In this document: positions 215-2,621 of the stretch, piece by piece
How positions within the stretch are numbered: position 1 is the stretch's first letter
How the letters are laid out: each line of letters starts with the position of its first letter
Assembly (NCBI GenBank): GCA_013214965.1
Contig: JABSRU010000032.1
Coordinates: forward strand, 1-49,080
Direction of reading: 5' to 3'
From: Gammaproteobacteria bacterium
GTDB lineage: Bacteria; Pseudomonadota; Gammaproteobacteria; Enterobacterales; Psychrobiaceae
Length of the DNA stretch: 49,080 bases
Notes under the pieces: generated by a model
Told to the model about the DNA's origin: nothing
Databases searched by the model: none
The model's input: only the letters and a program-made list of their open reading frames with translations
Translations under genes and position numbers: made by a program

Positions 215-1021
215 TTATTGCTCCTGTGGGGAATCGCTTGCATTTTCGTCATCGATAGCTTGATCGAGTAACCGAAAACGACTTAAAAATTCATGGTAAT
301 TACCCGCCAAAATTCGGCGGATATGAAATGGGGCTTTGGTCAATACATGACTCATGTAGCGGCTGGCAGCTTGTTGCTCGTCGCCCTCATAGATATCGAC
401 ATAGACCCATTTAGAGATTGGATCATTGGCAACCAAAAGTCGGCGTTGGCCGGCCTGATCCTCAAATTTTGGTAATTGGGTGACTCGTACTTGAACCACT
501 TCGTCTTCACTTAACTCATTAGTTAGGTTTAACACTTCACGCATCGCTTGGGGGCATACCTGAGATAAAATCACTTGATGATCTTCAGTATTTTCTATTG
601 CTACTTTAATGGGTTGCTTAGATACGCCATCAGCATCCAGGCTCGAACCACTGTCTTGCATATCGGCTAATCGTGAAATGCCATGACGCTTAAGACAGCG
701 CTGTAACCCTGCTCGTGACACACCACCATGAATAAATTCACGGCACACTACTAACAGCTCATCAAGCGAGAGTAATAAGCGGGTACGTAATTCAACAATG
801 ACATATTCTTGAGCAGGACTAAGGGTAGTATTGAGTTTTTTCGGGGCATGAGAGCCATCAATGACATCATCACGATGACGCCATTTATGTATGGTCGATT
901 CAGAGACTTTCAATAAACGTGACAGCATCGCCGTCGACAAATCCGACTCACGAATAAAGGCACGCATTTCAGGTGTGGTGGTCGCATTAGCATGGACCAC
1001 GTTTGAATCTTTCTTATTCAT
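215..1021 (-). CDS. pfaR: PfaR-type regulator of the PUFA synthase locus, derived from an IS481-family transposase
   Basis: This 268-residue protein sits directly upstream of pfaA, the position of the positive regulator pfaR in Shewanella and Photobacterium EPA clusters. Residues 29-50 form a helix-turn-helix (LLKVSESTIHKW), followed by a second helical region (SLDELLVV...VSRAGLQRCLKRHG, about 85-114). This matches the DNA-binding part of IS481-type transposases. Residues 174-250 keep the outline of an RNase H-fold integrase core: QVRVTQLP (177-184), RRLLVAND, KWVYVDIY, and ILAGNYHEF (237-245). By my alignment the first catalytic Asp is R179 and the second is G240. The protein stops before the expected catalytic Glu. 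It should therefore bind DNA but not cut it. The start is the ATG at 1021. An acidic tail (DDENASDSPQEQ) ends the protein. Confidence 0.85.
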   Translation of the reverse strand: MNKKDSNVVHANATTTPEMRAFIRESDLSTAMLSRLLKVSESTIHKWRHRDDVIDGSHAPKKLNTTLSPAQEYVIVELRTRLLLSLDELLVVCREFIHGGVSRAGLQRCLKRHGISRLADMQDSGSSLDADGVSKQPIKVAIENTEDHQVILSQVCPQAMREVLNLTNELSEDEVVQVRVTQLPKFEDQAGQRRLLVANDPISKWVYVDIYEGDEQQAASRYMSHVLTKAPFHIRRILAGNYHEFLSRFRLLDQAIDDENASDSPQEQ

Positions 1022-1200: not shown

Positions 1201-1516
1201 TTCTAATGAATCTAAAAAAAACCACCTTCCCATATCCATCCGTTGGTGAGAGGCAGTTTAATACCACTAAAATCAATCTTAGTGACTTATTTAAAATTTA
1301 ATATACACAGGTTTCAAACCCATGACAATCACCCGATACTAGACTTTAGTCTCGCGACATAGCCGTTCAAACATCTGACCAGATGCTATAAACCAGAAAA
1401 ATGAGTGAACGTGAGGATAATTGTGGCTAAAAAACGATATCTTAAGACTTTTAGTACAATATTCATTCAATGAAATAAATTAATATTTACGCTATTGATG
1501 TTTTAGATCTGGTTAA

Positions 1517-2002: not shown

Positions 2003-2621
2003 TCACTGGATCGACCAATAATTTATACCCGATAGTGAGTAATTAACTCGATACTCTAAGGTTGATGCATAGGTCACTTCCTTATTCATTTGCGATACCA
2101 GTGGTTGATAATCTTTATTTAATAAATTATCGACACCCACAGTGAAATGCCCAACATCTGTCAGTAAGAGTAGCCACAGGCATGTCACATAGCATTCTCA
2201 TGTCACCATGGGAATAGCCCTAAGAAAAGTTAATAAATCCTTCGGTGTTTTTTTCAAAATTATAAACAGCACCAAGATTAAACAACAGTTCGTTAGACTT
2301 TAATGCAGTACCCGTTTTTGCCGTTAACACACCTCTTTTATATCTTAGGTAATCAGGCACTTCAATCTCGAAATTCTCATAACGGAAACCAGCTTGTACT
2401 GTTATGTCATTCCGAACCTGATTAGCATATTGGACAAATGGATTTAATTTAGTTTCTGTTAAATAACAAACCGAGCAAATATATTGGGAGTTTACACAGG
2501 TGAGTGTTTTAACATCGCGCATTCTGCCTTGTTCAGTATTGTCATGGCCATATTCAATACCGTAAATTAACTGGCTACGTTGGTCGAACTTGACACGATA
2601 ACCGCTGCAACAGACAAACAT
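2003..2621 (-). pseudogene. Remnant of a TonB-dependent outer-membrane receptor
   Basis: Two pieces of a TonB-dependent receptor barrel remain. The upstream piece (2621-2220) has barrel-like strands such as QLIYGIEYGHDNTEQGRMRD, FVQYANQVRNDITVQAGFRY and NTEGFINFS. It then meets an in-frame TAG, after which the same frame continues GYSHGDMRML before stopping. The second piece (2188-2003), in another frame, carries the C-terminal signature GHFTVGVDNLLNKDYQPL. In an intact receptor these parts would be separated by a long stretch of barrel. The signal peptide, TonB box and plug are all absent. So the gene has lost its N-terminus, has an internal deletion and is frameshifted. It begins two bases after the stop of the beta-propeller gene. 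Confidence 0.8.

Follow-up and report, generated by a model that had tools for sequence, protein, structure and literature searches.

It is highly likely that PfaR, whose gene lies directly before the polyunsaturated fatty acid (PUFA) synthase genes, derives from one IS481 transposase that lost catalysis and is now the dedicated regulator of the neighbouring operon. In other words, a crippled transposase very probably serves as the switch of omega-3 fatty acid synthase genes. The gene was analyzed in a 49,080-nucleotide stretch of DNA (the window; contig JABSRU010000032.1 of GenBank assembly GCA_013214965.1, from a member of the Psychrobiaceae). There, pfaR occupies positions 215 to 1021 of the minus strand and encodes 268 residues from an ATG start; its open reading frame, profile match and alignment mark it as a domesticated IS481-type transposase. 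The start of pfaA, truncated at the contig end, lies at positions 2 to 211 of the same strand and begins 3 nt past the pfaR stop codon.

The core idea, an inactive transposase as regulator, is already known, since it was printed in 2016. In the excerpts of Wan et al. (PMC4744452) at hand, PfaR is called an inactive transposase-like transcriptional regulator of the pfa genes, and the protein of Colwellia psychrerythraea 34H, which has the same gene name and place (PfaRABCD) as the PfaR of the window, is modelled on MuA (4FCY) with the DDE residues unconserved, the modelling being marked unpublished. PfaR is also reported there to be absent from Moritella marina. The account in those excerpts differs from ours in that IS481 is unnamed and mobile sisters, an analysis of origin and a binding site are not given. 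IS481 parentage or a transposon-end operator for PfaR was not found in the open-licence PMC literature; in the portions available, PMC4882568 mentions regulators in connections other than the pfa genes and leaves transposase, integrase and promoter unmentioned, and PMC9138089 mentions neither transposase nor IS481. A promoter site that resembles the terminal inverted repeats of IS481 relatives is apparently new.

Relationship of PfaR to IS481 transposases

A reading of the window from sequence alone had claimed an N-terminal helix-turn-helix and a likeness to IS481 transposases, and the profile search bore this out: the NCBIfam model of IS481 transposases (NF033577) matches PfaR residues 23 to 255 at an E value of 9.6e-26, the alignment spanning profile positions 9 to 210 of 284. 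The score, 90.9 bits, is under the curated cut-off of 224, below what is expected of a mobile enzyme. The HMM comparison proposed with that reading also named Pfam rve, and here it failed, as rve has no match in PfaR; Pfam gave weak helix-turn-helix matches alone, every one under its cut-off. Matches to PHROGs were weak (best E of 0.009), phmmer found nothing among solved structures, and a profile search against solved structures returned two matches, at E values of 0.35 and 0.45. With homology running across both the DNA-binding and the catalytic parts, PfaR belongs to the IS481 superfamily by descent.

The retained DNA-binding half (residues 10 to 118; positions 668 to 994, minus strand) comprises two helix-turn-helix units; across 112 residues it shares 45 to 54% identity with every one of 12 IS481 transposases. 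Its mean identity between PfaR and transposases is 48.5%, against 53.5% among the transposases. The catalytic half (residues 173 to 252; positions 266 to 505, minus strand) is degenerate: across 76 residues its identity to the individual members of the same set of 12 is 27 to 36%, and here the mean is 27% between PfaR and transposases versus 61% among transposases. Indirect support for retention of PfaR for DNA binding comes from the conservation of its DNA-binding half, which almost reaches the level of working transposases, and from the site in the pfaR promoter (see below), which fits the ends of its mobile relatives.

Loss of the active site

Alignment with L014, a transposase of a sister element, pairs its HVDVKYLP with QVRVTQLP of PfaR, its YLFVAIDRATRWVY with LLVANDPISKWVY and its VLTDNGKEF with ILAGNYHEF. 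This pairing confirms the motif correspondence read earlier and puts R179 (codon at 485 to 487, minus strand) and G240 (codon at 302 to 304, minus strand) at the places of the first and second catalytic Asp, respectively. Neither place holds Asp in any of the 80 PfaR proteins aligned. The residues at the first are V (31), K (20), E (8), S (5), A (5), R (4), Y (3), N (2) and M (2), and those at the second R (41), G (24), A (5), E (4), S (3) and K (3). The catalytic Glu is likewise found in 0 of 80, its column being filled by some tail residue in 60 of the rows. All 12 related IS481 transposases compared have an intact D, D, E. Homologues with an intact triad, which the sequence-only reading had named as the finding that would tell against it, were looked for, and this candidate was rejected with none among the 80 aligned PfaR proteins. 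It had also been claimed that the protein ends ahead of the Glu; indeed, 28 residues lie beyond G240 in the PfaR of the window, against a spacing of 49 from the second Asp to the Glu in the sisters L014 and L099. Tails of at least 49 residues occur in 4 of the 80, without Glu in the column. By alignment, PfaR lacks the D, D, E triad of a mobile IS481 enzyme.

An AlphaFold model of PfaR (mean pLDDT 80, pTM 0.64) has helices at residues 17-25, 30-37, 41-48, 69-82, 86-97 and 103-112 in the DNA-binding half. Its C-terminal elements include strands 177-182, 193-200 and 205-212 and helix 215-229, and the strand expected to carry the second Asp falls within a long helix, 232-261. When the model was searched with Foldseek, all four matches at E ≤ 0.001 were the IS21 transposase IstA, with low TM-scores (0.13 to 0.19); among weaker rows retroviral integrases are frequent, with unrelated folds intermixed. 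Modelled alone (pLDDT 72), the C-terminal half gave nothing at E ≤ 0.001 in Foldseek; its top rows are a mixture, and integrase cores ranked lower align over 53 to 62 columns at about 3 Å. PfaR thus retains at most part of the RNase H core. Of the DDE core once read into this half, the order of the motifs stands; the complete RNase H fold does not.

Mobile sisters of PfaR

A first search covered 58 relatives and hit 11 genomes, with PfaR in ten and a transposase in one (G023). G023 has two copies of the full transposase. Its protein L014 scores 242.4 bits, which exceeds the IS481 cut-off, and carries rve and rve_3; the element copy has the target duplication GTTACT. Wider searches covered 369 genomes of the class, 86 of them matching at E ≤ 0.001, and 398 of the phylum, 151 of them matching. 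One genome, G317, gave six equal matches, and the five copies fetched are identical over the whole element and have five different 6-bp duplications (CGTAAC, CGTAGT, CATAGG, GATATG and GGTAGT). Among the annotated relatives on plasmids are ISGlo3- and ISRme14-type elements, whose duplications read TCTAAC and CGTAGG. In the G317 copies (L129 to L133), the transposase frame reads through the right end of the element, and a stop codon (TAA or TAG) lies inside the 6-bp target duplication in four of the five copies fetched, so that the stop codon is supplied by the insertion site.

The ends of these elements (the relatives of ISGlo3 and ISRme14 and unnamed ones in G023, G317, G129, G621, G430 and G775) match the pfaR promoter site, and the unnamed elements share with PfaR a DNA-binding half that is about 50% identical. 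Unlike PfaR, the 12 elements compared have the triad, and the elements have two ends and 6-bp duplications, with several copies in some genomes. Among the genomes listed there is one PfaR each, rather than multiple copies in variable positions.

Single origin, selection and linkage to pfaA

In a tree of 60 proteins (37 PfaR and 23 transposases), PfaR forms one side of a branch with support of 99/100, and in a second tree of 41 rows, 15 of them PfaR, it again forms one side, with support of 100/100. The comparison with active transposases that had been suggested thus yields a single origin for PfaR, and, together with the IS481 profile match, it upholds the claimed descent from a transposase. 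The ratio dN/dS is 0.019 to 0.132 across 10 close PfaR pairs. For the window against L005, with dS near saturation, it is 0.082, and 0.055 in the catalytic half.

In the loci of the best 80 among 353 relatives, a pfaA motif lies within 600 bp downstream of pfaR in 78; of the two loci without a call, L040 stops at the contig end and L053 has no motif. In a sample of 394 genomes of the order, pfaA was found at E ≤ 1e-150 in 78 and the PfaR profile matched at E ≤ 1e-20 in 68. We counted 58 of the 68 as PfaR, omitting G023 and nine genomes that match the N-terminal part only. PfaR is present in 56 of the 78 pfaA genomes of this sample and absent in 22. None of the 58 PfaR genomes was found to be without pfaA; in the two off the pfaA list (G000 and G036), a pfaA start stands directly after pfaR. 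The open frame was found in families f1, f4, f6, f7, f12 and f13 of the order. Fixation next to the PUFA synthase genes, as first read from the window, is therefore what these counts show. With a single origin, a conserved place, purifying selection and lost catalytic residues, PfaR is a domesticated transposase.

A site resembling a transposon end upstream of pfaR

The proposed PfaR operator, GTATCGGGTGATTGT (positions 1325 to 1339, minus strand), is similar to the inner portion of the left-hand terminal inverted repeat in related IS481 elements. In the near clade, transposon ends have the approximate common sequence TGTnnnGTCCCnnnyGATT, and variants including GTCTC, ATCCC and GACTC occur. 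We took the 500 bp before 82 pfaR genes (those of the window, L005, L007 and 79 of L019 to L098; L050 came without its 5' part) and scored them with a matrix of positions 7 to 20 of 12 transposon ends, with dinucleotide shuffles as background. Of these regions, which share descent and of which 45 are mutually dissimilar, 76 score above the 95% shuffle level and 72 above the 99% level, all 72 on the same strand and in left-end orientation. With a matrix of 22 ends, the best scores average 14.2, versus 3.8 (sd 0.7, maximum 6.3) for 200 matrices with permuted columns. The outcome was less favorable under a stricter control: 465 tiles of 500 bp, taken from the pfaR open frame and beyond, have a 99% quantile of 16.5, which 28 of the 82 upstream scores exceed. 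Across 79 loci (445 kb), 75 matches scoring at least 11 fall within 600 bp upstream, each of them on the plus strand, and 22 fall elsewhere; eight of the 79 have no upstream score of at least 11. A loose pattern, composed after the sites had been inspected, occurs forward in 82 of 82 regions and in reverse in one (L007), and 30 shuffle rounds gave a forward mean of 2.5 and a maximum of 7.

The resemblance also holds in reverse. We scored 19 transposon loci with a matrix of 16 distinct pfaR site cores, and the top match coincided with a transposon end for 12 of the 16 near-clade elements and for none of the three distant-clade ones (the misses are L182, L185, L160 and L138, of which L160 and L185 share the same ends; the ends of L181, L183 and L184 were checked for this test).

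The outer TGT of the transposon end is retained in 1 of 82 sites. At pfaR there is one left-end-like site, upstream, rather than two repeats with a target duplication. Indeed, the pfaR-site matrix (threshold 10) has a single match in the 49-kb window and gave no second one there or in the stretches searched around the clusters of G013 (37 kb) and G004 (40 kb). We considered whether the pfa cluster had moved as a unit between two transposon ends and rejected this on the same search of G013 and G004. The transposon-end matrix gives three further, weaker matches in the window, three in G013 and five in G004, without a common place; those in G013 and G004 score 10 to 16, and each genome has one of 13.0 on the minus strand beyond pfaD, at differing distances.

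In ten PfaR genomes the pattern GTNYCNNNTGATTGT occurs 35 times, barely above the reversed control. The form CGGGTGATTGT occurs seven times: five before pfaR, one within an unrelated gene of G003, and one in G011, where it faces a neighbouring gene taken from its sequence as the phosphopantetheinyl transferase pfaE. L007 has two PfaR-type sites, at 2373 to 2387 (minus strand) and 2558 to 2572 (plus strand), facing apart between pfaR and a phosphopantetheinyl-transferase-like gene; the arrangement suggests that pfaE may also be controlled in that genome.

The pfaR promoter and leader

The predicted pfaR promoter (positions 1300 to 1328, minus strand), drawn from a consensus match and a recurring layout, has a -35 hexamer TTGTCA at 1323 to 1328, which overlaps the operator, a 17-bp spacer and a -10 hexamer TATATT at 1300 to 1305. 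In the window this arrangement scores 10 of 12. Two such matches occur in the 551 bases scanned, versus a shuffle average of 3.0, so that the match in the window is by itself no evidence. Among the 82 regions upstream of pfaR, 78 share this layout: TTG closes the best-scoring place in 79 of 82, and the hexamer 17 bp on starts with TA in 79 of 79 and has T as its last base in 78 of them. The one that differs, L053, is a look-alike whose loose-pattern site sits elsewhere. Most of the -35 hexamers are weak, with TTGTAT in 48 of 79. A second GTCCC....GATT site stands closer to the start codon in 38 of the 45 loci L054 to L098.

Other features of the region are recorded here. The sequence ATCTGGTCAGATGTTTG at positions 1368 to 1384 (minus strand) resembles a FadR site, matching 10 of 15 positions of the FadR consensus. 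With this consensus, scores of at least 11 of 15 occur in 19 of 82 pfaR upstream regions, versus 2.2% of mononucleotide shuffles. CTGGTC-type matches recur ahead of the PfaR site, at a distance of 51 bp in many Colwellia and of 25 bp in many Shewanella. The long leader that separates the promoter from the pfaR start holds two palindromes with a ACACGTGT core, TTACACGTGTAA and TACACGTGTGT, at 1071 to 1082 and 1190 to 1200. At 2003 to 2621 (minus strand), two short open reading frames resemble, by their translations, the remains of a TonB-type receptor gene.

pfaA loci without pfaR

The 22 pfaA genomes without PfaR belong to families f2 (11), f21 (10) and f12 (one, G986). We examined 14 of them from the three families (seven of f2, six of f21, and G986). 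The loose site is present in 0 of these 14 loci in the 900 bp before pfaA on either strand, and tblastn (E ≤ 1) found no pfaR remnant in the stretches fetched for the 14. The string TGTGTATATT of the -10 region is kept in five of the seven f2 loci (G009, G034, G055, G834 and G872); when G009, G034 and G055 were aligned by eye, the GTNYC...TGA part was missing. Family f21 may never have had pfaR. In G009, G034 and G055, the 461 N-terminal residues of PfaA are 94 to 95% identical to those of G004, of the window's genus, despite the different family and the lack of pfaR, and horizontal acquisition of this pfa cluster is possible on the sequences compared.

A model for PfaR action

In the model that we propose, an IS481-family transposase would have lost catalysis and taken on regulation of the adjoining PUFA synthase operon. 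Its two retained helix-turn-helix units would grip the site halves GTNYC and GATTG, 4 bp apart, much as the ancestor would have gripped its transposon end. Given that the upstream part of the -35 box lies within the site, recruitment of RNA polymerase by PfaR at the pfaR promoter seems the most likely action, and the leftover catalytic half probably serves dimerisation or polymerase contact. We lean toward a PfaR that would activate the pfaR-pfaABCD transcription unit, and with it itself.

As to origin, we marginally favor a captured element whose left end survives in the operator as a literal fossil, and whose right end, cleavage tip and catalytic Glu would have been lost. An IS481 copy would have landed before pfaA, and its transposase and end would have been kept together as a ready-made pair of regulator and operator. 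Alternatively, the site may have evolved towards the old specificity. Descent from the left end is preferred because the orientation and the place are the same; the loss of the outer TGT is neutral in this respect, because cleavage is no longer needed.

The most serious competitor to activation is a PfaR that represses its own promoter at the transposon-end-like site and activates nothing. Some transposases limit their own expression, the operator does overlap the -35 box, and the second site of L054 to L098 lies downstream of the -10 hexamer, a repressor-like place. We nonetheless think this rather unlikely, as the prevailing weak -35 hexamers suit a promoter that is helped, although the TTGTCA of the window is a good one. 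The -10 hexamer kept in G009, G034 and G055 without pfaR is compatible with either direction of control.

It is improbable that the site belongs to another regulator, with an incidental likeness to transposon ends, and that PfaR binds elsewhere. The FadR-like half site that lies nearby in some loci fits such a reading, and other factors may for that reason act on the pfaR promoter. Against it, the matrix was built solely from transposon ends, the site is missing in all 14 pfaA loci examined without pfaR, and CGGGTGATTGT in ten genomes mostly precedes pfaR. Finally, a decaying pseudogene hitch-hiking beside pfaA, as the lost triad and C-terminus and the 22 PfaR-less pfaA genomes of the order sample might suggest, was rejected as very improbable on the low dN/dS, which extends to the catalytic half, and the frame stays open in six families.

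Comparison with other domesticated transposon proteins

Transposase-derived transcription factors are known mainly from eukaryotes. SETMAR is mariner-type, and TldR is derived from TnpB. According to the excerpts available, human SETMAR (PMC9062482), derived from Hsmar1, resembles PfaR in its transposase origin and keeps binding the ancestral terminal repeat; it differs in being eukaryotic, fused to a methyltransferase and faced with many genomic copies rather than one operon. TldR proteins (PMC13418256, seen in excerpt) are likewise bacterial regulators derived from transposon proteins, but they are RNA-guided, of unrelated fold and not DDE transposases. In the case of PfaR, a DDE transposase of bacteria seems to have been captured along with its target DNA and to control a biotechnologically important operon. 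The analysis yields a predicted 15-bp operator for PfaR, and pfaA loci with and without pfaR form a natural control set; living sister elements are at hand for comparison, which makes the path from transposon end to operator directly testable. If the operator is literally a left end, half of a transposon end pair would determine how much omega-3 fatty acid is made in several marine bacterial families, and living IS481 elements of the same clade could cross-bind the pfa promoter, and PfaR their ends.

Other short IS481-like proteins were also seen. Six proteins of 272 to 280 residues (L200 to L205, from G598, G674, G910, G965, G830 and G738) have a PfaR-like DNA-binding half and a degenerate IS481 catalytic half, and are possibly further domesticated transposases. 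In an alignment read by eye, the second Asp and the Glu are absent in all six and the first Asp is kept in G598 and G965. Five of the six group apart from PfaR, and that of G830 is unplaced. The best sites upstream of their own genes, on the gene strand, score at most 9.6, which suggests that capture of the site, as judged from sequence, is seen for PfaR only.
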